The notes under the pieces are model-generated. The model had not been told where the DNA came from and did not search any database. It was given only the letters and a program-made list of their open reading frames with translations. A DNA stretch of 64,000 nucleotides from Dysgonomonas hofstadii (GTDB lineage: Bacteria > Bacteroidota > Bacteroidia > Bacteroidales > Dysgonomonadaceae): assembly GCF_014196915.1 (NCBI RefSeq), contig NZ_JACIEP010000005.1, positions 310,001 to 374,000 of the forward strand, given 5' to 3'. Shown here one piece after another: positions 11,763 through 62,886 of this stretch. Position 1 is the stretch's first letter. The number at the start of each line of letters is the position of its first letter. A program made the position numbers and the translations under genes.

Positions 11763-11897
11763 TGTTTATATAAGGGTAAAAGGAGTCTGTAAGGTAAAAA
11801 GATTTGGTATATATGGCTTATTTTATCTCATATTGTATTATCTTTGTGCCGTAGATATGTACAGAAACTTTGCAATTACAACTACGAATTTAGAAAA

Positions 11898-14405
11898 ATG
11901 AAAAAACTGGTTATTAAATTATTTTCACGGGTATCTATCTTATCCTTGTTGCCTCTATCCATCGTTATGGTAACAATAATGTTTTCATGTAAAACATCAA
12001 ATTCATCTGTTAAAGAAATACAAATACTTCGAGGCAAACAAGTCGACTTTGAATACGAGCAACAAAAGAAAATCAGCGTAAAAGTTCCTAAAGATAAAGG
12101 AGAGGCCATGACTAAGGATCTTTTCCTGCAGTCGAAGCGTCCAAATATAGAATTACCTCGTATTGAGGGAGCAGAAGGAGGAATAGCCGTAGTCTCGGAA
12201 CAGGTTACATTTACTAATCCCGAAGTGATAACAAGATCGACACCTGAGGGAAATAAAGTGACAAATCTGAACGAGGTTCAACACCTGAATGAAGTTGTGG
12301 TTACAGCAAAATCCCGCTTTACTCCGGAACAAAACGGGCGTGTGAATGTAGACTTTATAATAAAGGTTCCAAAAGAACTATTGTCTACTAACTGGCGTGT
12401 TACTTTGTCTCCAAAACTATTACATAACGACTCAGTTGTTCCTTTGAAAAATGTTGTTGTAAAAGGACAGAATTTTTATGATCAACAAAAGCAGTCGTAT
12501 GCCGATTATGATGAATACATGAAATCCATCATAAGAGAATCTGATTATGACAGTGTGTTTGTCGATTACAAAGGCGTAAGAGAAGATATCAGTTTCCAAC
12601 AGGAATTTTACTACGATCAATACCATAAGGAATGGCGCCGTCAGAAAAATTATGAGACATGGAAATCGGCAAAAGATGATGTTGAAGCTTTGTCGGAAGC
12701 TAAACAGGTCGGATATGACCGGAAAGTATATTACGAAAATGCACGCAAAGCCCGCCAAAGGGCGATGAAAGAATTGGCCAAAGGAAAAGATACCACAGGC
12801 CTTTTCGCTAAATATATGAAGAATTTCGTAAAACCAGAGGATATAGAAAAAGGTAGAATAAAAGTTGAGCAACGTGAAGACTATCGTCTCGACCTGTTCA
12901 AAGAGTATTCACGTAAGGCAAAAGAAATGACCCTTAAAGACTGGGTGAACGGAAAAGATACGGCAGGAGCATATATGCGCTATATAAGGAGCTTCGATAA
13001 GAACCTGAAAAATATGATGTTGGATGGTGAAGATATGAAAAATATTCCGCAGGAATTCCGTGATATATATAGATCAGGCCGTAGTATGGATCAGATCACA
13101 AATCAAAGCATATCCGATAAAGACTCTATAGAAATAGCAAAACATCGTTATCTGTTCGAAGATATCGCTTTGAATGATATGAAGCGTGAGCGACAAGATG
13201 CTAAAAAGAATGAAATGATCATATTCCCATACGAACAGAATACGCGTTTGGATACGGTTATTCAGACCGATAGAGACTTTGTTTTCTATTATAAGCAGGA
13301 TTACCCTGTGTCTCCGGGTATGAAGAGGTTGCGTCTCGTAATGAACAGCCAGGTTGATGCTGTGGACAGAAGCCGGTATATACAGCCACAATCCGATACA
13401 CTTTCATACTTTATATCATCTCTGTCTCAGTTGGTAGACTCTTCGTTGATTGTGAAAACAACGACTATTCATCGTGATGTATATAATACGATGGTGATAT
13501 ATCCTAAATTCCAGCTGGGAAGAACTAATTTTAATGTCAACTATAAGGACAATAAGGAGCAAACAAGCAAGCTGATAGATTCTTATAAGACATTTACGGG
13601 AGAAGGAAATCTATTGATGGACAGTATTGTGCTGAGGGTTTCAACATCGCTTGACGGAGAATATGAAAAGAATATAGAGTTATCAATGAAACGGGCAGAT
13701 GCCTTAAAAGCTTTCTTTGTTAAGGCACTTGGCGGCACTCCGGAAGTAGAGAATATATTCAAAACCCGCTATAGCGGTGAAGATTGGAATACATTGGCAC
13801 GCCTGATCGTTAGACGTACCGATATGCCAAATAAATCGCAGATTCTGGATATGCTTACACAAGCTGTAAATCCAGATCAGTGTGAGAAAGATATAAAGAA
13901 AGATTATCCTGCTGATTATAAAATTATAGTAGATTCCATCTATCCGATGTTGAATAAAGCGGAAGTAATAATCAACATGACACGTCCTGGTATGACTGAA
14001 GAAATTACAGTTAACAGGGAAGATCGTCCGGAATATGCTCAGGCTTTGAAATATCTTCAGGATAGGGAATACTGGAAGGCTTTGGATATATTGGGTAATT
14101 ATCCTGACTACAATACAGCACTATGTCTTGTATGTATGGGATACAACGCTAAAGCGCTTGAATTACTCGAAAGCCTGAAACAAACGGGAAATACAGAATA
14201 TTTACTTGCAATATTGTCAATTCGTTCAGGTAACGATGATGAAGCTATCAATCATTTGATAAAAGCTTGTGAATTGGACCCTTCCAAGGCATACCGTGCT
14301 CCGCTCGATCCTGAAGTTGCAACGCTTGTTAATAAGTATAATCTGCAAAACCGGTTGATATCCGCATCGTCTGCATCTGATATAGTTACTGGTGAAGAAG
14401 AATAG
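11898..14405 (+). CDS. Large lipoprotein with OmpA-like and TPR-like C-terminal regions
   Basis: A protein of 835 residues from the ATG at 11898. Earlier in-frame starts overlap the -7 box TATCTTTG at 11839-11846 and are unlikely. The signal ends VTIMFSC (Cys31), so it is a lipoprotein. Residues about 95-185 contain HLNEVVVTAKSRF and a beta-rich stretch. A Lys/Asp/Tyr-rich, probably helical part follows, in which a KGKDTTG/NGKDTAG motif recurs before runs like KYMKNF and RYIRSF. About residues 560-620 read like a divergent OmpA C-terminal domain (NIELSMKRADALKAFF), which would bind peptidoglycan. The last 120 residues look like TPR repeats (YWKALDIL, KALELLESL, AINHLIKACELDPSKAY). An envelope scaffold role is inferred; I do not recognise a named family. 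Confidence 0.75.
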   Translation: MKKLVIKLFSRVSILSLLPLSIVMVTIMFSCKTSNSSVKEIQILRGKQVDFEYEQQKKISVKVPKDKGEAMTKDLFLQSKRPNIELPRIEGAEGGIAVVSEQVTFTNPEVITRSTPEGNKVTNLNEVQHLNEVVVTAKSRFTPEQNGRVNVDFIIKVPKELLSTNWRVTLSPKLLHNDSVVPLKNVVVKGQNFYDQQKQSYADYDEYMKSIIRESDYDSVFVDYKGVREDISFQQEFYYDQYHKEWRRQKNYETWKSAKDDVEALSEAKQVGYDRKVYYENARKARQRAMKELAKGKDTTGLFAKYMKNFVKPEDIEKGRIKVEQREDYRLDLFKEYSRKAKEMTLKDWVNGKDTAGAYMRYIRSFDKNLKNMMLDGEDMKNIPQEFRDIYRSGRSMDQITNQSISDKDSIEIAKHRYLFEDIALNDMKRERQDAKKNEMIIFPYEQNTRLDTVIQTDRDFVFYYKQDYPVSPGMKRLRLVMNSQVDAVDRSRYIQPQSDTLSYFISSLSQLVDSSLIVKTTTIHRDVYNTMVIYPKFQLGRTNFNVNYKDNKEQTSKLIDSYKTFTGEGNLLMDSIVLRVSTSLDGEYEKNIELSMKRADALKAFFVKALGGTPEVENIFKTRYSGEDWNTLARLIVRRTDMPNKSQILDMLTQAVNPDQCEKDIKKDYPADYKIIVDSIYPMLNKAEVIINMTRPGMTEEITVNREDRPEYAQALKYLQDREYWKALDILGNYPDYNTALCLVCMGYNAKALELLESLKQTGNTEYLLAILSIRSGNDDEAINHLIKACELDPSKAYRAPLDPEVATLVNKYNLQNRLISASSASDIVTGEEE

Positions 14406-33190: not shown

Positions 33191-35806
33191 ATGAGAAAAA
33201 AATTATCTTTTCTGTTGGTAGGTATTTTATTTTGTTCCATTACAGCTTTTGCCCAAACCGTGGTAAAAGGCGTGGTGCTGGATAAAGATACCAAAGAGCC
33301 TTTAATTGGGGTAACTGTATTTTCAGAGGATGAAAAGAAAGGGACAGCGACCGATCTCGACGGGAGCTTTACATTAAGTTTATCATCATCTAAAGGCAAA
33401 TTGAAATTCACATATGTAGGATACAAAGCCCAGGAGCTCGATGTAAGAGCAAATATGGGTAATGTCGAAATGGAATCTGATGCTTTCGGACTAAATGATG
33501 TTATTATTACATCTACTATAGGGGTAGACCGTAAAACACCGGTAGCCATGTCTTCTATCGATGCAGAGATTATCATGCTGAAGACAGGTACAAAAGAATT
33601 CCCGGAATTACTTAAATCCACGCCAAGTGTATACGCAACAAAAACAGGAGGGGGATATGGAGACTCTCAGGTAAGGGTACGTGGTTTTGATTCGCCAAAC
33701 GTAGCTGTGATGATAAATGGGGTGCCGATGAATGATATGGAGTGGGGTGGACTTTACTGGTCTAATTGGGCCGGATTAGGTGATGTGACACGTGTGATGC
33801 AGGTACAGCGTGGGCTAGGAGCATCAAAAATATCATCACCATCAGTTGGAGGTTCTATCAATATTATTACCAAATCTACAGATGCAGAAAAAGGTGGTTC
33901 TGTGTATTACGGAATGGGTAACGATGGTTACAATAAAGTTTCGTTCAATGTATCCACAGGTCTGATGGATAATGGTTGGGCCGTAACTTTGTTAGGCGCA
34001 AAAACATGGAGCGACGGTTACATTCAGGGTACAGACTTTGAGGCCTATTCTTATTTCCTGAATATATCCAAGCAATTGGGAACAAATCAGGTATTGTCAT
34101 TAACCGCATTTGGTGCACCTCAGTGGCATAATCAACGGAAGGACCAATTATTAATATCAGAATGGGCCAAACTGCCTAAGAATGATAGATATCAATACAA
34201 CGCCGGCTATGGATACGATTCGTCTGGACAGTTTAAGACATTTAATTACAATGAATATCACAAACCGCAAATATCATTGAACCATATTTGGGATATTAAT
34301 TTGAAATCAAGTTTATCAACAGCCCTTTACTTGTCTCTTGGTTCGGGAGGTGGATATTCGGGAGTAGGAAATAACAGAACAGCTGCATACGGATCAACTA
34401 ACGGGTTGGTTAATCAGGACTATAGAGCAGGTGATGGAAAAGTTGCCGGATTCGGGACTTATGATTTTGCTAAATTAATGGCTGAAAATGCTGAAAACCC
34501 GAATGGATCGCAGCTGGCTATCCAGAATGCTATAAACAACCATGTTTGGGTGGGCTTACTTTCTACATACAGTAATAAGATTACCGATGAAATAGAGCTA
34601 CAGGGTGGTGTAGACTTCCGTTATTATAAAGGAATCCATAAAACAGAGATAGTAGATTTGCTCGGAGGTAAATTTTTGGTAGACCCGCAAAGGGTTATTG
34701 ATGGTAAATACAAAGATAATGCAGACTGGGTAAATGAGAAACTGACAGTCGGTGATATCGTATATCGTAACTATGATGGATTTGTAATGCAGGAAGGAGT
34801 ATTCGGACAAGCTGAATATTCAAAAGATAAATTGAGTGCTTTTGTATCAGGATCTTTCAATGTTTCGAATTACTGGCGTGTAGAAAAATTTGCAGCTGAT
34901 AATGAAAAATCAGATACAAAAAATAAAGCAGGTTTTGGTATTAAAGGAGGTGCGAATTATAACTTCAATATAAATCATAATGCTTTTGCCAATATCGGTT
35001 ATTTCTCTCGTACACCATTTTATTCTGCCGGTATCTTTACAAGCAATCAGAAAAGTAATGCGATGAACCCTAACGGTAGAAACGAAAAAGTATTCTCAGT
35101 GGAAGCCGGATATGGATTTGTCAATAGTTTTATGAATGCCAAAGTTAATATCTATCGCACAGAGTGGAATGATAAGACAATGGTAAGGTCTTTAGATTCA
35201 AGCAGGCCCGAAGAAGGTACTCTTAATTTATCAGGAGTAAATGCTTTACATCAGGGTATTGAGTTTGAAGTGAATGTGCGTCCGACAAGAAATCTGAATC
35301 TGAAAGCTATGGCGGCGTTTAATAACTGGAAATGGAATAGTAATGCTTCAGGATATGCTGTCAAACAAGATGGTAGTGTCGTTGAACAAAATGGTGCTCC
35401 CGTAGAAGCGCAGGTAAATCTGAAGGGTATCCATGTGGGTAACTCTCCTCAAACGTTTGTCGCTGTTGGTGCCGATTATCAGATATTTAAAGATATGCGA
35501 ATAGGTCTCGACTTTAATCACTATGCGAGAATTTTTGCCGACTTTACAGTAACTATAAACCGTTGGGGTGCAAATGATTTTGCTCAACCATGGCAGATAC
35601 CTAATTACCAAACATTTGATTTGTTCTATAATTACAAATTTAATATTATGGGACTAAAAACAACATTGACAGCGAACATCGATAACCTGTTCGATGCGGT
35701 TTATATTGCTGATGCAAAGGATGGCGGTGATGGAAAAGCAGAATCTGCTCAGGTGTACTATGGCTTTGGACGCACATGGAGTGTAGGATTAAAAGTACAT
35801 TTCTAA
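33191..35806 (+). CDS. TonB-dependent outer-membrane receptor
   Basis: An 871-residue receptor. It has a signal peptide (MRKKLSFLLVGILFCSITAFAQ), then a carboxypeptidase-regulatory-like domain (about 23-105: VVKGVVLDKDTKEPLIGVTV, GTATDLDGSFTLSL). A plug domain follows (about 120-235: GDSQVRVRGFDSPNVAVMINGVPMN), then a 22-strand barrel ending in a terminal Phe (LKVHF). TonB-dependent receptors import bulky ligands such as glycans, metal chelates or cobalamin. The ligand is not readable. It is followed after 29 bp by a choice-of-anchor-J-like lipoprotein, so the pair probably works together at the surface. It does not show the SusC/SusD gene arrangement. Confidence 0.93.
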   Translation: MRKKLSFLLVGILFCSITAFAQTVVKGVVLDKDTKEPLIGVTVFSEDEKKGTATDLDGSFTLSLSSSKGKLKFTYVGYKAQELDVRANMGNVEMESDAFGLNDVIITSTIGVDRKTPVAMSSIDAEIIMLKTGTKEFPELLKSTPSVYATKTGGGYGDSQVRVRGFDSPNVAVMINGVPMNDMEWGGLYWSNWAGLGDVTRVMQVQRGLGASKISSPSVGGSINIITKSTDAEKGGSVYYGMGNDGYNKVSFNVSTGLMDNGWAVTLLGAKTWSDGYIQGTDFEAYSYFLNISKQLGTNQVLSLTAFGAPQWHNQRKDQLLISEWAKLPKNDRYQYNAGYGYDSSGQFKTFNYNEYHKPQISLNHIWDINLKSSLSTALYLSLGSGGGYSGVGNNRTAAYGSTNGLVNQDYRAGDGKVAGFGTYDFAKLMAENAENPNGSQLAIQNAINNHVWVGLLSTYSNKITDEIELQGGVDFRYYKGIHKTEIVDLLGGKFLVDPQRVIDGKYKDNADWVNEKLTVGDIVYRNYDGFVMQEGVFGQAEYSKDKLSAFVSGSFNVSNYWRVEKFAADNEKSDTKNKAGFGIKGGANYNFNINHNAFANIGYFSRTPFYSAGIFTSNQKSNAMNPNGRNEKVFSVEAGYGFVNSFMNAKVNIYRTEWNDKTMVRSLDSSRPEEGTLNLSGVNALHQGIEFEVNVRPTRNLNLKAMAAFNNWKWNSNASGYAVKQDGSVVEQNGAPVEAQVNLKGIHVGNSPQTFVAVGADYQIFKDMRIGLDFNHYARIFADFTVTINRWGANDFAQPWQIPNYQTFDLFYNYKFNIMGLKTTLTANIDNLFDAVYIADAKDGGDGKAESAQVYYGFGRTWSVGLKVHF

Positions 35807-35835
35807 ACCTAAAAAAACAAAATAAGAACAACAAT

Positions 35836-37755
35836 ATGAAAAAAATAATATTTATACTGTTTACTGTTTTTATTGCTTTCTCTTGTAAAGATTTCAATGA
35901 GGACAATTTTGATTGGTATGAAGATGCTGAAAGACCTACAAATCTGGCGAACTACCAATATACAATGACAGATGCTGATTATACGATAATTGTAAATGCT
36001 CTGAAAGCAACTGGTACAGACGAAAATACAGCATTGGCAAATAAGTTGAGTTCGGCCAAGAAGTTTTCACCTGAACTCGATCCTGCACAGTTGATTCCAT
36101 ACCTGCTCGAAAACAAGTATTATACAGCAGACGTTAAGTCGTCGGCCATGATTACTTATATGTATGATGATGCACGTGATGAGGTGTTGAGCGGATTGAG
36201 CACTACGGGATACACTATGGTGAGTGACGATTATAAGTCGGTGTGGGGAACAAGCCCGCTGGTATTATCTCTTACCCCGGCTAAATCTGCAAATTCGCAG
36301 ATTCCGAATATTTTGAAAACCCGTTTTACTGATGCGGTAGCAGGCGATTATAAGACTGTAGAATATTATTATTCGGATGAAGAACCTGTGACAACTACAG
36401 TTGAAAGCGTATTCTTTGAACAAAAATTCGAAGGCTATACTGCGGGCTCGGGTGTGGCTGTAAATATTGACGGATGGATTAATAAAGATGTAACCGGTGG
36501 TTCAATATTCTGGCAAATGCGTACATATAGTAGCAATAACTATGCACAGGTGTCATCGTATCAATCTGCTGCAAAAAATGAGGTTTGGTTGATTACGCCA
36601 AATGTTGATTTGACTAACTCAACAACAACGCCTAAATTCTCTTTCGATATAATTACAGGGAACTATACTGCTGCCGGCTTGAGGATTATGATATCGGAAG
36701 ATTTTGACGGAACGGTAGGTGATATTGCTACTGCAAACTGGACAGATGTAACTTCAAGCTTTACCATTCCTGCTCCAGCAAGTGGATATAGTACATGGGC
36801 TACTGCCGGCACATTAGATCTTACTGCTTACAAAGGGAAAAAGATATATATTGGATTTAAATATATGGGCGATGATACTTCAACACCTAAGGTTACGACT
36901 ACTTATCAACTGGATAACGTAAAGGTATGGGAAGAAGTTTCAGGTACGGATGTGGAAAGTAAGTATACACAGTATGCAACATATACATACAATGGTAGTG
37001 CATGGTCTGCCGTAGGCAGCGGTATCCTTACTTTGCAGCCGGAAGATTATACTAAACTAACCCTTTCTTCGGGAACAATGACTACAGCACAGGCTCAAAC
37101 CTTATTGCCTCAATATCTGGGTCAGAATTTTATAGGAACTGAAAAAGTAGTCGTTTATCGCACAAGTGCCGGGGTTTACTATGCTGACCGGGTAGTTTAT
37201 GATAACCAATGGACAGTACAAAGTACTCTTTCAGAAGAGTCCTCGCAATTTGTACGGGCGGAAGTAAATAATTCTAAAGTCTGGATTTTCGATCCGACTA
37301 TCATTGTTTCTTTAGCTAAGTCTGATTACCAGATAGTGGTAGATTATGTTATCGATCATTATAAGGCAGGTGACGATGATGTTGTTCATGCTAATAGTAA
37401 TGCTGAATACTATTATGGATTTAGCACATACTATGGCAATGTTTCTTACCGTGAGGTAGATAGAGGTAAAGATGATACTTACCCTATGGATGCTTCCCAG
37501 GATGAGAAAGTTACCTTTATGAACCAACGTACTGTCGAAGGGCTTATCATAGTACTTAATTCCAAATATCCGAACGCTACTCCTATAGTAAGTGGGGTAG
37601 ATCAGTATGCACGGGTCGACAATGTGCTGATATATTCCGAACCGGGAGCCGGAACCAATGTGTATTGGTCTTATACGCTACAATGCACAGGCGATAAGGA
37701 ATGGAAATTCGTAAGCCGCGAGGCTTCTGACGGACGTACGGAAACGGCTGAATAA
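35836..37755 (+). CDS. Surface lipoprotein with choice-of-anchor J-like domain
   Basis: A 639-residue lipoprotein from the ATG at 35836 (signal FIAFSC, Cys17); the longer frame from 35776 overlaps the end of the receptor gene and is less likely. After about 180 residues of unknown type, about residues 190-375 show a jelly-roll domain (FFEQKFEGYTAGSGVAVNIDGW, EVWLITPNVDLTNST, PKFSFDIITGNYTAAGLRIMISED, GKKIYIGFKYMG, TTYQLDNVKVWEE). This fits the DUF5017/choice-of-anchor J class of carbohydrate-binding-like folds. The C-terminal 250 residues are not assigned. Cotranscription with the TonB receptor suggests it captures that receptor's ligand. Confidence 0.8.
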   Translation: MKKIIFILFTVFIAFSCKDFNEDNFDWYEDAERPTNLANYQYTMTDADYTIIVNALKATGTDENTALANKLSSAKKFSPELDPAQLIPYLLENKYYTADVKSSAMITYMYDDARDEVLSGLSTTGYTMVSDDYKSVWGTSPLVLSLTPAKSANSQIPNILKTRFTDAVAGDYKTVEYYYSDEEPVTTTVESVFFEQKFEGYTAGSGVAVNIDGWINKDVTGGSIFWQMRTYSSNNYAQVSSYQSAAKNEVWLITPNVDLTNSTTTPKFSFDIITGNYTAAGLRIMISEDFDGTVGDIATANWTDVTSSFTIPAPASGYSTWATAGTLDLTAYKGKKIYIGFKYMGDDTSTPKVTTTYQLDNVKVWEEVSGTDVESKYTQYATYTYNGSAWSAVGSGILTLQPEDYTKLTLSSGTMTTAQAQTLLPQYLGQNFIGTEKVVVYRTSAGVYYADRVVYDNQWTVQSTLSEESSQFVRAEVNNSKVWIFDPTIIVSLAKSDYQIVVDYVIDHYKAGDDDVVHANSNAEYYYGFSTYYGNVSYREVDRGKDDTYPMDASQDEKVTFMNQRTVEGLIIVLNSKYPNATPIVSGVDQYARVDNVLIYSEPGAGTNVYWSYTLQCTGDKEWKFVSREASDGRTETAE

Positions 37756-54661: not shown

Positions 54662-55732
54662 TTAAAGTTGTTCTACAAATAAGTCGAATAAGAAACCTGT
54701 GTCTGTCGGTCCGCTGGCCGCTTCAGGATGAAATTGTGCCGAGAAGAAAGGTTTTGTTTTGTGCTTAATACCTTCGTTCGTTCCATCATTCAGGTTTATG
54801 AACAGTGGCTCCCAGTCACTTCCCAGAGAGGCATTTGCTACGGCAAATCCGTGATTTTGAGATGTAATAAAACATCTTGTATCATCTACCATCTTTACGG
54901 GTTGATTGTGACTGCGGTGTCCGTATTTCAATTTATAGATAGATGCGCCTCCAGCTTTTGACAGTAATTGGTTACCCATACATATCCCGCAAATCGGCTT
55001 ATTTCCATCCATTGCCTTGCGTATGTTTTTTACTGTCTCTTCACAGAATTCAGGGTTTCCGGGACCATTGGATATGAAAAGTCCGTCCCATTCCAATTGA
55101 TTGAAGTCGTAGTCCCAAGGCACACGTATGATCGTTACGTTTCTTTTGAGTAAGCTGCGGATGATGTTGTGTTTTACACCACAGTCTACGAGCAGTACTT
55201 TCTTTTCTCCGTTTCCGTACGTAAGCACTTCTTTACAGCTGACTTTTGCAACCTGATTTTCTAAGTTAGGATCGTAGAAATCCACTTCATTTTCGTTATT
55301 GAAAACGATTTTTCCTTTCATCGAGCCTTTTTCGCGTAGTATTTTAGTGAGTTCGCGAGTGTCGATTCCGTAAATTCCCGGAACATCGTGTTCTTTTAGC
55401 CAGTCACCCAGGCTTTTTTTCGCATTCCAGTGTGAGTATTCGTGAGAGTAGTCAGATACGATAAGTCCGGTTACCTGTACTTTTTCCGATTCGTAGAAGT
55501 CCGAAATTCCATTCGTAAATGTATCATCGGGAACCCCGTAGTTTCCTACAAGAGGAAATGTTACAACGAGTATTTGCCCAAGGTAAGAAGGGTCGGTAAG
55601 GCTTTCGGTGTACCCCACCATAGCGGTGCTAAACACTACTTCGCCGGCTTTTGCTGTTTCCGATCCGAAAGATTTCCCTTCGAAAACTGTTCCGTCGTCA
55701 AGAATTAGTTGAACTTTTTTGTCTGAATGCAT
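54662..55732 (-). CDS. carA: Carbamoyl-phosphate synthase small subunit
   Basis: A 356-residue glutaminase subunit. It has an N-terminal CarA domain (VQLILDDGTVFEGKSFGSETAKAGEVVFSTAMVGY) and a class I glutamine amidotransferase domain with the nucleophile in CGICMGNQLL and the catalytic His-Glu in FHPEAASGP. It supplies ammonia to CarB. The order carA-carB is the usual operon. A hairpin with a T tract lies in the leader at 55776-55818, between one possible -7 box (55905-55898) and the start. Confidence 0.97.
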   Translation of the reverse strand: MHSDKKVQLILDDGTVFEGKSFGSETAKAGEVVFSTAMVGYTESLTDPSYLGQILVVTFPLVGNYGVPDDTFTNGISDFYESEKVQVTGLIVSDYSHEYSHWNAKKSLGDWLKEHDVPGIYGIDTRELTKILREKGSMKGKIVFNNENEVDFYDPNLENQVAKVSCKEVLTYGNGEKKVLLVDCGVKHNIIRSLLKRNVTIIRVPWDYDFNQLEWDGLFISNGPGNPEFCEETVKNIRKAMDGNKPICGICMGNQLLSKAGGASIYKLKYGHRSHNQPVKMVDDTRCFITSQNHGFAVANASLGSDWEPLFINLNDGTNEGIKHKTKPFFSAQFHPEAASGPTDTGFLFDLFVEQL

Positions 55733-55975: not shown

Positions 55976-58309
55976 CTAGAATATCCTTATTTCATCTATC
56001 ATGAGATAGGCTTCCTTTTCGCTTTTCTCATGCCATTCGGGCAAAGTCTTTATTGATTCGGCTACCACTTTTACATACCTGGCTTTTACCGTTTCCATAA
56101 GGTTGGCCGATAAACTGAGTATCATTGGGCCAATATGCTCTTTTCTTGTTGCGTACTCTTCTTTATATATTTCTTCGAAATTTTTTCCGTCTTGTGATAC
56201 ATATATATAGAGGGCTTTAGGATCGAAAAGATTTCCCCGTGTATTGACATAAGAGTTAAAACTAATAGAAGATACTCCAGTCTCTTCTTTCAGGTCGATA
56301 GTTGCATCGAGATCTGTACCCAGAAAGCCTATCCATAAACCAGTACGGTAGCTGGCCACGGAGCCTATCTGTCCGCTAACCAGTGACTCGGCTCCTTTGA
56401 ATGTATATTTATTGTCAGGCTCATTTTTCAGTTTAATGGGGTGGGCGCATGCCTTATGATAGATAAAATCTTTAGAGTATACGTCACTTTTGATATTGTC
56501 ACGGTAAACCACAGCTTTAAATAAAGTGTTCTCTTTTATTATTATAGGTTCATTCACATTATATAATGTTGATTCTGTCGTGGGATCTTTCTCTCCCATT
56601 GTATAATAGATAGGACTATTATCGAATGTAGATAAGTATATACATATTTCATTTCTTATAGTATCTATAAATATAGAGTCCTGAATACCATATGCATATT
56701 TACAATTATCATATCCTAGTTTATCAAATTGCGGGGATAGTTTGTAGAGTCTTGAAACAAAGTCATTATAATCCTTCGTTCTCGGATTACGCCATAATGT
56801 TTCAGCCAGTGCACACATACGTGGTAAAAGCATATATTCTACATTCTGTGACGATGGCATATATTCTGTCCAGATATTAACCTGTGCTCCCAATATGTGT
56901 TTTTGTTTGTTTTCGTCCAGGTTCGCTGGCATCGGGTCGAATGAGTAAATTTTCTTTAACTCGGTGAGCCATCCATAGGTGAATGGTTCATTATCTACAT
57001 CAGGCGACTGATAATAGTCGAGATTGGTAAATTGTTCGGGGGTCATAATTACATTGTGCCCTTTGCTGGCAGCATCAGTGCCACTTTCTATCCCATGCCA
57101 TGCCATAATAGTTGCATTTGGCGCTATATCACTTTCCTGTATATTGTCCCATCCTATAACACTCCTGCCTTTATCGTTAACTATTTTTTCTACACGCTTG
57201 ATAAAATAGCTTTGCAGCTGTTCGCCTTTGGTGTGTTCTTTATTTTCTTTAAGCCTTAATTGTTGCATTCTTTTTTGACATTTGGGACATGCATCCCATC
57301 TGTTTTTCAGACATTTGTCTCCGCCAATATGGATATACTCCGACGGAAATAGTTTTGTTATTTCGGTAAATACATCATCGAGAAAACTGAAAACATCTTC
57401 ATTTCCGGCACAGAGTACATCTTCGTAAATACCCCATTCGCACCCTACCTCGTAAGGGCCTCCTGTACAACCTAACTCGGGGTATGATGCTAATAGGGCG
57501 AGTGTATGTCCCGGTATATCGATTTCGGGTATGATGGTAATAAAGCGTTCCTGTGCATATTTTATGATGTCTTTTATTTCTTCCTGTGTGTAGAATCCCT
57601 CGTGGGGTTTGTCATCGAATTCGCCCGTATGCCTGTCTATAACGGTTTTTTCCCTTTTCGATCCTATTTCAGTGAGTTTTGGATATTTTTTTATTTCGAT
57701 GCGCCACCCCTGATCGTCAGTCAAATGCCAGTGGAAAACATTCATTTTGCACATAGCCAGTACGTCGATATATTTCTTAACAAATGACACAGGAAAGAAA
57801 TGGCGTGAAACATCTAATGAGACGCCACGGTACTTGTATGCAGGATAATCGGTAATATCTATCCCCGGAAATTCTATACTGCCTGATGCATTAGTAGGAA
57901 TAGCATTTCTCAGTGTTTGCACACCATAAAATGTTCCGGCTTCGCTGGCTCCATTTATGCTGATAAGAGAATCATTTACTTCAATATTATAGGCTTCGGA
58001 ATTGTCATTTGTGAAATTTGTAGTCAGTGAAATGATGTTTTCCTGTTCGCTATTACTGCTTACTTCAAGTCTGTATCCGGTTGAGAATTCTATATATTCG
58101 GCCAATAGTCCGGCAATTCCGGCTAAGGATTTATTATCAGAAGGATATACGATTTTTGTTGTATTGTCAATAAGGAAACTTTTGTCATTTACATAGTTTA
58201 TCTCCTGAACCATGGGCACGATATTATAATCAACAACAGAGTAATCATTGTTGGATGAACAAGCCGCAAGAAAAGTTAAAGTTAGAAAGTAACAAAAACG
58301 CTTAAACAT
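55976..58309 (-). CDS. GH20 beta-N-acetylhexosaminidase-like lipoprotein, catalytic Glu replaced
   Basis: A 777-residue lipoprotein from the ATG at 58309 (LTFLAAC, Cys17); the 13 extra residues of the longer frame lack signal character. A GH20b domain (about 30-155) precedes the GH20 barrel (about 157-510). Barrel motifs are RGVSLDVSRHF, VFHWHLTDDQGWRIEIKKYP, PEIDIPGHT and the late WTEYMPSSQNVEYMLLPRMCALAETLWR. A fibronectin/discoidin-like C-terminus follows. The key motif reads HIGGDKC (Asp331, Lys332) instead of HIGGDE. Lys replaces the glutamate acid/base of the Asp-Glu pair, by GAA to AAA at 57316-57314. Another conserved spot reads GWDN rather than GWDE. The enzyme is probably catalytically weak or inactive, unless this is a sequencing error. 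Confidence 0.85.
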   Translation of the reverse strand: MFKRFCYFLTLTFLAACSSNNDYSVVDYNIVPMVQEINYVNDKSFLIDNTTKIVYPSDNKSLAGIAGLLAEYIEFSTGYRLEVSSNSEQENIISLTTNFTNDNSEAYNIEVNDSLISINGASEAGTFYGVQTLRNAIPTNASGSIEFPGIDITDYPAYKYRGVSLDVSRHFFPVSFVKKYIDVLAMCKMNVFHWHLTDDQGWRIEIKKYPKLTEIGSKREKTVIDRHTGEFDDKPHEGFYTQEEIKDIIKYAQERFITIIPEIDIPGHTLALLASYPELGCTGGPYEVGCEWGIYEDVLCAGNEDVFSFLDDVFTEITKLFPSEYIHIGGDKCLKNRWDACPKCQKRMQQLRLKENKEHTKGEQLQSYFIKRVEKIVNDKGRSVIGWDNIQESDIAPNATIMAWHGIESGTDAASKGHNVIMTPEQFTNLDYYQSPDVDNEPFTYGWLTELKKIYSFDPMPANLDENKQKHILGAQVNIWTEYMPSSQNVEYMLLPRMCALAETLWRNPRTKDYNDFVSRLYKLSPQFDKLGYDNCKYAYGIQDSIFIDTIRNEICIYLSTFDNSPIYYTMGEKDPTTESTLYNVNEPIIIKENTLFKAVVYRDNIKSDVYSKDFIYHKACAHPIKLKNEPDNKYTFKGAESLVSGQIGSVASYRTGLWIGFLGTDLDATIDLKEETGVSSISFNSYVNTRGNLFDPKALYIYVSQDGKNFEEIYKEEYATRKEHIGPMILSLSANLMETVKARYVKVVAESIKTLPEWHEKSEKEAYLMIDEIRIF

Positions 58310-58398
58310 AAATATATGATTTTGTGTTTCATAGTGTAAAATGATCATCTAAATTCAAATATATAGTTTATTCTGAAATTAATGCTCAAAATTTTTTA

Positions 58399-58406: not shown

Positions 58407-58447
58407 CAACTTCGAGATAAGATTGAAAAACTAAAAAAGGATTGGCT

Positions 58448-59764
58448 ATGAAAATTCTGAAATTTGGGAGTGCTTCTATCGCTACAGCTGAAAAGATAAA
58501 AAATGTAGCGAAAATTATAGCTAAGGGACAGAATAATAATTTGATTGTTTTGTCATCAATGCGTGGAACTGCTGAGGCATTGACCGAAATTTCGGATTAT
58601 CTTTATAAAAAAAATCAGGAAGGTGCCATTGAGATTATCAATAAGCTTGAGAAGCAATATTATGATTTGTCGGCATCCCTTTTTGATAGCCCGGAAATAA
58701 AAAAGCAAGCCGACGAAGCAGTCTTATCAAGGTTTGACTATATTCGCACTTTTACAAAGGACTTGTTTACATTGTTCGAAGAGCGTGTCATTATGGCTCA
58801 GGGAGAATTGATTTGTTCGGAACTGATCTGGTTGTATCTCAAAGAAAAAGGTTTGAATATAGCTTTGATTCCGGCTTTGGATTTTATGCGTACAGATAAA
58901 AATTCAGTCCCGGATCCGGTATACATAAAAGATAAATTGATGGCTTTATTGGAACAAGCCAAAGATGCGGATATTTTTATAACACAAGGATATATTTGCC
59001 GGAATGCTTATGGCGAAATAGACGATCTGCGTAAAGGTGGCAGTGACTATACAGCATCGTTGACCGGTGTGGCTGTCGGAGCCGAAGAGGTACAGATTTG
59101 GGCTGATGTAGATGCTATGCAGAATAATGATCCCCGCTATGTGAAAGGTACTAAGGCAATCCCGCATCTTAATTTTGATGAAGCGGCCGAACTGGCCTAT
59201 TTTGGACTGAAAATATTACATCCGTCAAGTGTTTTGCCTGCTAAGCTGGCGAATATTCCGGTACGGTTGAAAAATATAGAATGCCCGGAAGCTGAAGGAA
59301 CTTTAATTTCGAACGAGACAGAGGCAAGGGCAATTAAAGCTGTGGCAGCAAAGGATAATATTACAGCCGTGAAAATCAAGTCGGGTAAAATGTTGCTGGC
59401 ACATGGTTTCCTTCGTCGTGTGGCAGAAGTTTTTGAAAATTATCAAACTTCGATAGATATGCTGGCTACATCAGAAATAGGTGTATCTTTGACAATCGAT
59501 GATGGGCGGAATCTGCAACTGATAATAGATGATCTGAAAAAATATGGCACGGTTTCTGTCGATAATGATATGGTAATAATATCTGTAATAGGGGATTTGG
59601 AATCGGATGATACAAGTTTTTCTTCCAATATACTGAATGCAGTAAAAGGTATTCCTGTAAGGATGATCTCATATGGTGGAAGCAAATATAACTTCTCTTT
59701 TTTAGTGAGTAGGGGAGACAAGGAGAAGACATTACAAATATTAAATGATAAATTGTTTAATTAA
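58448..59764 (+). CDS. lysC: Aspartate kinase
   Basis: A 438-residue aspartokinase from the ATG at 58448; a TTG two codons earlier is in frame but less likely. The kinase domain shows LIVLSSMRG, AQGELICSEL, the segment DLRKGGSDYTASL and VDAMQNNDPR. Two ACT domains at the C-terminus (about 300-438: LLAHGFLRRVAEVFENYQTSIDMLATSE) would bind lysine or threonine. The opening motif is KFGSAS rather than the usual KFGGTS. lysA follows after 11 nt, so this isozyme most likely serves diaminopimelate/lysine synthesis. The loss of the conserved Gly-Thr in the N-terminal motif is unusual, but the rest is intact. Confidence 0.92.
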   Translation: MKILKFGSASIATAEKIKNVAKIIAKGQNNNLIVLSSMRGTAEALTEISDYLYKKNQEGAIEIINKLEKQYYDLSASLFDSPEIKKQADEAVLSRFDYIRTFTKDLFTLFEERVIMAQGELICSELIWLYLKEKGLNIALIPALDFMRTDKNSVPDPVYIKDKLMALLEQAKDADIFITQGYICRNAYGEIDDLRKGGSDYTASLTGVAVGAEEVQIWADVDAMQNNDPRYVKGTKAIPHLNFDEAAELAYFGLKILHPSSVLPAKLANIPVRLKNIECPEAEGTLISNETEARAIKAVAAKDNITAVKIKSGKMLLAHGFLRRVAEVFENYQTSIDMLATSEIGVSLTIDDGRNLQLIIDDLKKYGTVSVDNDMVIISVIGDLESDDTSFSSNILNAVKGIPVRMISYGGSKYNFSFLVSRGDKEKTLQILNDKLFN

Positions 59765-61013: not shown

Positions 61014-62177
61014 ATGATTGAGCAAATATTGTCTTATTTTATTTTTAATGAAGTAGAAATAATCGCATTGTCTTTATTTTTCCTATTCCTTTTGGTTCAG
61101 CTTTTTTTCTACTTTAATTATTATAAGAAGCCATATTCGTATGCAAGGAAAATAGATGGAGATAACTATCAGGTTTTACAATCGAATCCTAAAGTATCAG
61201 TTATTATTTCATCAGAAAACGAGGCTGTCGAGTTGTCAAAGAACTTGCCGGCTATCCTTTCGCAGGATTATCCCGATTTTGAGGTAATCGTTGTAAATGA
61301 CGGCTCAACAGATGAGACTGAAGAGTTGCTGTTGTCTCTTAAATTACATAATCCTCATCTATATCATACTTATCTGCCTTATTCACCCGATAAGAAATTT
61401 GGACGAAAAAAACTGGCATATACTATAGGTATTAAGGCAGCCAAAGGAGACGTATTGTTATTTACCGAACCTCATTCCAGGCCAATATCCGATAAATGGA
61501 TATCATCTATGGTCAATGAGCTGTCAGATACAAAAGAAATTGTTCTGGGTTATTCTTTCTATAAAAAAACAAAGAATTTCTTTAACAGAATAGCCCGTTT
61601 CGACAATTTATTATTTAGCATGCAATATCTGTCGATGGCTATCAAAAAGAAACCATATACAGGCACATATCGTAATCTGGCATTTAAGAAACATCTGTTT
61701 TTTGATAATAAAGGCTTTGCTTCACATCTGGCATTGGAAAATGGCGAAGATGTCTTTATTAATCAGATTGTAAATGAAAATAACACTGCAATTGCAATAT
61801 CACAAGACAGCTTTATAGAGATGTCTATTGACCGTTTTTCGTTATGGAAACAGATAAAAAAATCATATTCCATAGCTAAAAGCCACTTTAAAAATTCAGC
61901 GTCTGTTCTATTCGGTTTTGAAATATTTTCCAGATATCTTTTTTATTTGTTAACGATCGGTTTGATTGTTTATGCAGTACTTGCCCAGAATTGGGTAATA
62001 CTTGGTATTGCTGCATTCCTCTTTTTATTCCGACTAATAGTACAACTGGTTATAATAAACAAGTGTGCGGAGCATTTTCATTCCGGAAAATTTCATTTTT
62101 CATTACTTCTTATGGATATGTTTCAGCCTGTTTATAACGCCCGGTTTCGTACAAGGCACAGGAGAGGTATAAGATGA
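61014..62177 (+). CDS. Membrane glycosyltransferase, GT2
   Basis: A 387-residue protein with one N-terminal membrane helix (about 12-36). A GT-A domain (about 58-290) follows, with VSVIISSENEAVELSKNLPAIL, VIVVNDGSTDETEEL, an LLFTEPHSRP segment in the place of DxD, and a GEDVFIN acceptor motif. Two further helices lie near the C-terminus (about 300-345). It resembles processive or membrane-bound family 2 enzymes. The DxD position reads EPHS, so the metal site is atypical. It comes after the lysA terminator and converges on the exosortase-like gene, only 10 bp apart; a functional link is possible but unproven. Confidence 0.8.
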   Translation: MIEQILSYFIFNEVEIIALSLFFLFLLVQLFFYFNYYKKPYSYARKIDGDNYQVLQSNPKVSVIISSENEAVELSKNLPAILSQDYPDFEVIVVNDGSTDETEELLLSLKLHNPHLYHTYLPYSPDKKFGRKKLAYTIGIKAAKGDVLLFTEPHSRPISDKWISSMVNELSDTKEIVLGYSFYKKTKNFFNRIARFDNLLFSMQYLSMAIKKKPYTGTYRNLAFKKHLFFDNKGFASHLALENGEDVFINQIVNENNTAIAISQDSFIEMSIDRFSLWKQIKKSYSIAKSHFKNSASVLFGFEIFSRYLFYLLTIGLIVYAVLAQNWVILGIAAFLFLFRLIVQLVIINKCAEHFHSGKFHFSLLLMDMFQPVYNARFRTRHRRGIR

Positions 62178-62187
62178 AAGAGTAGTT

Positions 62188-62886
62188 TTAACCAATATTC
62201 TTGACGGCAGATTTTCTCAATGGCCTTCTTATTTTCTCTTCCCATATCAGCCATAAGATGAAGATTACACCATCATAATATATCCATGTGAATATATCCC
62301 GGTGAAATACATTGAACCAGTCTTTATAAAACAAGAGATAACATTCTCTGGTGTTTATCCATTCACGATGGTTATACCATTCGTTCACTGCAATAAACCA
62401 CTCTGGAAAAGGATTCTTTATAATCAGGAATATAATGGATAGGCGTAGTATATTAATAAGTACCAGAATAAGCAGGGATAACGGGATATACCATAATTTT
62501 CTCTTTATTGGACCAAAATAGAACATAAGGATAAAAGCAAACATAAAGAGTTGCTTAAGTCCTGTACATCCCCAAATTATATCGATAGGGATAGATCCTT
62601 TAAAATAAAGGGTAATGCCGTTTATGAGATAAAAATCCTTATATCCCAGTATGTCGTGTACAAACCAATATACAGATTCGGCAGTCCATCTGTTTATGCC
62701 TTCAGTATATATAGTAAGATCTTTCCCCAGAACAAGAAGGATTCTTTCATCTTCTCCCTGGTGTACACATATTTTCCAGATAAATTCGAAAATAAGAAAC
62801 AAACTAAGAAACCATATAATATTTTTAAATGGTTTTAAATGTTTCAATAGATTATTTCCTATGTAGTTTTTTTCTTTACTATCCAT
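62188..62886 (-). CDS. Exosortase/archaeosortase-family protein
   Basis: A 232-residue protein with about six membrane helices. The transpeptidase-like triad of the exosortase/archaeosortase class is visible: IWGCTG (Cys107), INILRLS (Arg148) and VFHRDIF (His195). Such enzymes cut a C-terminal tripartite signal (short motif, membrane helix, basic tail) and attach or release surface proteins. The subfamily is not certain; Bacteroidota have several (XrtF, XrtN, XrtY and others). No neighbouring protein has an obvious tripartite signal. The -7 box TACCTTTG lies at 62913-62906. Confidence 0.85.
   Translation of the reverse strand: MDSKEKNYIGNNLLKHLKPFKNIIWFLSLFLIFEFIWKICVHQGEDERILLVLGKDLTIYTEGINRWTAESVYWFVHDILGYKDFYLINGITLYFKGSIPIDIIWGCTGLKQLFMFAFILMFYFGPIKRKLWYIPLSLLILVLINILRLSIIFLIIKNPFPEWFIAVNEWYNHREWINTRECYLLFYKDWFNVFHRDIFTWIYYDGVIFILWLIWEEKIRRPLRKSAVKNIG

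Follow-up and report, generated by a model that had tools for sequence, protein, structure and literature searches.

A GH20-family lipoprotein of Dysgonomonas hofstadii with lysine at the acid/base position is probably a lineage-specific pseudo-enzyme

The gene at positions 55976 to 58348 (minus strand) of a 64,000-nucleotide stretch of the Dysgonomonas hofstadii genome, referred to here as the window, encodes a GH20-family lipoprotein in which the acid/base glutamate is replaced by lysine. The protein is best explained, with a probability of roughly 0.7, as a lineage-specific GH20 pseudo-enzyme that would have lost hydrolysis and been kept as a non-cutting surface lipoprotein, probably one that binds glycans. 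On the best reading of the sequence comparisons this pseudo-enzyme is young and lineage-restricted, and it was seen in one genome of one species. Its ancestor would have been a GH20 enzyme at a single-copy locus, where the orthologues in other Dysgonomonas look active. In this species Lys has replaced the acid/base Glu, Asn has replaced the Tyr that contacts the acetamido group, and the β5-β7 face of the active site is remodelled, whereas the fold, the lipid anchor, the accessory domains, a promoter-like box and seven of the nine subsite -1 contacts remain under purifying selection.

The coding sequence was identified by ORF calling and Pfam and encodes 790 amino acids counted from the first ATG. 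The likely start is M14 (ATG at 58309), from which the protein is 777 amino acids long. This start is followed by an intact lipoprotein signal, MFKRFCYFLTLTFLAACSS, with the lipobox LAAC before S, as had been claimed in the original prediction, and a surface location is inferred for the lipoprotein. Residues are numbered below from the first ATG, so that D344-K345 here is D331-K332 in numbering from M14. The catalytic domain (PF00728, Glyco_hydro_20) matched over 347 of 348 positions (E 9.5e-120, 400.5 bits against a cut-off of 22.3) and the Glyco_hydro_20b domain (PF02838) was complete at 78.6 bits, which is the full-length domain content of the GH20 family. Fn3_assoc and CHB_HEX_C_1 (chitobiase C-terminal/Fn3-associated) also exceeded the Pfam cut-off, and a weak match to F5_F8_type_C (F5/8 type C) fell just below it. 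The best solved relative was PDB 6q63, a Bacteroides-type GH20 β-hexosaminidase, which aligned over residues 27-789 with the same domain order. An AlphaFold2 model of the protein, built from only four input sequences, had a pLDDT of 44; viral contigs were scanned for further sequences and none were found.

The plus strand reads TTT at 57314-57316, giving the minus-strand codon AAA (Lys345, or 332 from M14) in the motif HIGGDKC. The adjacent catalytic partner, Asp344 (331; codon GAC, 57317..57319, minus), is retained. Relatives were compared in an alignment panel of 30 proteins, made up of nine one-to-one orthologues at 54-71% identity, of which six are from within the genus and three from a sister genus, together with 21 other GH20s, including five from the same genome. 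All 30 had Glu at the position of Lys345, which rules out Lys as a trait common to relatives (0 of 30) and leaves it unique to this protein. Asn402 in GWDN (codon AAT, 57143..57145, minus) likewise replaces a Glu found in all 30 relatives, and Asn442 (codon AAT, 57023..57025, minus), the equivalent of SpHex Tyr393 and HexB Tyr450, replaces a Tyr that is invariant in all 30. At the same places 6q63 has HVGGDEC, GWDEI and Tyr, in contrast to the HIGGDKC, GWDNI and Asn seen here. Across all other sequences 76 sites are invariant, and this protein departs from them at three, through E345K, E402N and Y442N. All three departures map within the active site or next to it, and each orthologue breaks none or one of the 76. 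The Lys, the retained Asp and the GWDE-to-GWDN change therefore stand as first described. The Lys had also been attributed to a single-base change from GAA to AAA, which is possible but uncertain because the orthologues use both GAA and GAG at this codon and the nearest of them, L008, has GAG.

In the Streptomyces plicatus enzyme SpHex, subsite -1 is formed by Arg162, Asp313, Glu314, Trp344, Trp361, Tyr393, Asp395, Trp442 and Glu444 (PMC8098473). By motifs and alignments, the equivalents in this protein are R174, D344, K345, W400, W417, N442, D444, W493 and E495. Seven of the nine contacts are thus retained and identical to those of SpHex, and the two that are lost are the proton donor (Glu314, here Lys345) and the Tyr on the side of the C2-acetamido group (Tyr393, here Asn442; mapping via PMC8098473). 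Apart from Asp344, the retained contacts are R174, W400, W417, W493, D444 and E495, which are all those expected of an active enzyme outside the two lost positions. The Asp-Glu catalytic pair of an active β-N-acetylhexosaminidase is incomplete, with Asp344 kept and Lys345 in place of Glu. In VhGlcNAcase, changing the equivalent Glu to Ala or Gln nearly abolishes activity, and formate gave no significant rescue of these mutants (PMC8098473, PMC4752478). By extension from these other GH20 mutants, loss of both the Glu and the Tyr should abolish canonical substrate-assisted hydrolysis, and canonical hydrolysis should therefore be dead in a protein that is homologous to enzymes and has lost residues that catalysis requires.

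The changes at conserved sites were concentrated in one part of the protein. There were 292 sites identical across the nine orthologues, and 21 of these were altered here, 11 of them in residues 396-445 (57014..57163, minus), which we take, from general knowledge of the barrel, to be the β5-β7 side of its active site. In this segment 11 of 40 conserved sites were altered, compared with 10 of the 252 in the rest of the protein (Fisher p 1.1e-5). To allow for the choice of window in the protein, permutation scans were made for the densest 50-residue window, and the observed value was attained in 1 of 20000. Residues 396-445 are the most conserved segment among the orthologues, with L008 86-96% identical there to the others tested, whereas this protein is only 60-70% identical there to L008 and the other orthologues. 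In all remaining segments this protein and L008 diverge alike. The original prediction had described the rest of the barrel as intact; this holds outside the segment, where the protein evolves like its orthologues, but not within it, where Y442 has become Asn and 11 of 40 conserved sites are altered.

A codon model gave the same picture, with omega in residues 396-445 of 0.110 on this branch versus 0.018 on the others (2dlnL 25.5) and a whole-gene omega on this branch of 0.05, values that are rough since synonymous sites are saturated, this branch carrying about 6 substitutions for each codon. In the remaining segments omega was not significantly raised on this branch, and on three control branches there was no rise in residues 396-445. 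Because of the synonymous saturation, the identity and Fisher results are firmer than the omega values.

The order of genes around this locus was conserved. The downstream neighbour is carA (54662..55732, minus) and the divergent neighbour is the aspartokinase gene lysC (58442..59764, plus). The order exosortase-like gene - glycosyltransferase - lysA - lysC - GH20 - carA - carB was shared with the loci of two orthologues (L051 and L053), and the named relatives at the locus were Dysgonomonas. This conservation indicates that the gene is the same gene as in those genomes and not a diverged additional copy. A promoter-like Bacteroidetes-type -7 box, TATATTTG, was found at 58356..58363 (minus), 54 nt upstream of M14, and was kept at equal spacing (53-54 nt) in four orthologues (L009-L012).

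The genome, which is 99.7% complete with 0.08% contamination, carries six GH20 genes, and the other five (L002-L006) retain the Glu. Loss of activity in this protein could be tolerated because of these five. Among them, L002 (C10) is short, at 549 amino acids, and stops after the barrel without C-terminal modules. L005 and L006 are divergent, with 5 and 12 unique breaks at invariant sites, and retain the Asp-Glu pair and the Tyr.

The presence of five Glu-bearing paralogues is also what would be expected in early decay, in which a redundant gene loses its active site first and the remainder is still undegraded. The restriction to a single species fits this explanation, as does the nature of the changes, which resemble loss and not a conserved new motif. 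However, if constraint had been lifted across the gene, about 69 conserved-site changes would be expected outside the segment at the segment's rate, and only 10 were observed, within the range of 4 to 17 seen in the orthologues. In these between-species data the constraint outside the segment equals that on the orthologues, so that selection must have continued to act on the fold during the rebuilding or dismantling of the active site. The reading frame, lipobox, promoter-like box and accessory domains are also intact. Early decay is accordingly considered unlikely, and the earlier statement that this is not a decayed gene is supported.

A retained protein might also have acquired a new function within this one Dysgonomonas lineage. 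The Lys and the remodelled β5-β7 face could have turned the barrel into a lectin-like receptor whose ligands would be anionic HexNAc glycans, sulfated or acidic, or could have given it a novel reaction other than hydrolysis, though this can be offered only tentatively, as an outside chance. The new residues on the remodelled face are Lys345, His418, Asp407 and Asp425, and none of them is common to any aligned relative.

These residues, together with the retention of Asp344, Trp400, Trp417, Asp444, Trp493, Glu495 and Arg174, would also be compatible with an enzyme that is still active by an altered mechanism or with altered specificity. Such an enzyme might use a substitute acid. Alternatively, Lys and the other new residues might accommodate an anionic substrate or take part in transglycosylation or phosphorolysis. 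A precedent for charge swaps that can shift mechanism is found in GH130, where exchanging basic phosphate-binding residues for acidic ones made hydrolases out of phosphorylases (PMC4599007). Against this, the protein lacks both its proton donor and the Tyr that contacts the acetamido group, the VhGlcNAcase Glu mutants were nearly inactive with no significant rescue by formate, and the absence of the new residues from every relative means that there is no conserved new motif. Continued activity of this kind is improbable.

A sequencing or assembly error, one of the three options first put forward, might be suspected from a Lys codon one base away from GAA in a single genome, but is very improbable and was rejected on the linked multi-base changes. 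E402N cannot arise from GAR to AAT with fewer than two base changes (Y442N requires one), eleven conserved sites are changed in frame within 50 codons without a frameshift, and the genome is nearly complete with little contamination. Local gene conversion, by which the segment would have been imported from another, already inactive GH20, could account for changes packed into one 50-codon stretch, but it is hardly credible and was rejected for want of a donor: the best matches of the segment were the orthologues (70-72% identity) with no paralogue closer, no inactive donor was found in this genome or in the family, and K345 lies outside the stretch.

Taken with the intact gene order, lipobox, promoter-like box and domains, the clustering of the changes argues against both sequencing error and general decay. 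The co-occurrence of E402N, Y442N and the cluster of 11 sites shows that the Lys did not arise as a stand-alone error but belongs to an active-site remodelling specific to this lineage, and it makes the pseudo-enzyme the best supported of the three options. Glu in the relatives had been named beforehand as a finding that would count against the proposal; all of the relatives do have Glu, but the additional linked changes still favour a pseudo-enzyme. The role of this pseudo-enzyme is probably the binding of GlcNAc/GalNAc-type or related glycans, which is plausible because Arg, Trp, Asp and Glu contacts are retained and other families offer a precedent (PMC7828330). It is just as possible that binding was lost as well, since the remodelling affects the lining of the sugar pocket.

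The rarity of the change was assessed by surveys that detect only the HxGGD-x6-W form of the motif, so that variant motifs escape them. Among 393 Bacteroidales genomes, searched with H-[IVM]-G-G-D-[codon not starting with G]-x5-W, the only GH20 to match was this gene, and the other four matches were unrelated or out-of-frame. The motif with a codon starting with G was present in 216 of the 393 genomes, and among the matches listed all such codons were GAA or GAG (Glu). A survey of the family (101 genomes) found no other GH20 with a non-G-starting codon at the motif. In a survey of the phylum (296 genomes), limited to codons starting with A or C and with A second, this gene was alone among the GH20s; the three other matches had one motif in common and the one that was read was SusD-like. 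Across order, family and phylum, the matches that were read as candidates for further non-Glu GH20s comprised a SusC-like receptor and a SusD-like protein, together with further unrelated proteins and matches out of frame, and none was a GH20.

Pseudoglycosidases are known from few families, and in the literature searched, outside subscription journals, no GH20 pseudo-enzyme was described. Human YKL-39 (GH18-like) and CyRPA (GH33-like) likewise have a glycosidase fold without catalysis, and some such proteins retain glycan binding (PMC7828330). They belong to other GH families, however, and in the present case the loss is confined to one species and glycan binding is only putative. NGS1 of Trichoderma reesei, a homologue of GH3-type NAGases, also lacks catalytic residues and has been proposed to be a GlcNAc sensor (PMC12954445), but it is a fungal GH3 protein and is not known to be a surface lipoprotein carrying this set of accessory domains. 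The single-copy syntenic locus, with its comparable orthologues, would provide a natural before-and-after pair for the transition from an exo-hexosaminidase to a non-catalytic protein. It also serves as a warning, as family-level annotation would mislabel this protein as a β-hexosaminidase.

Several other genes in the window were noted. The exosortase/archaeosortase-family membrane protein encoded at 62188-62886 (minus) matched TIGR04178 at 55.7 bits and matched XrtX/XrtF weakly, under their cut-offs. The family 2 glycosyltransferase gene at 61014-62177 (plus) adjoins it, and the order of this pair is kept in L051 and L053. A TonB-dependent receptor-like gene followed by a gene for a DUF5017 protein (33191-37755, plus) is possibly a SusC-like uptake pair, and an 853-amino-acid ORF at 11844-14405 (plus) was without a Pfam match at E 1e-5.
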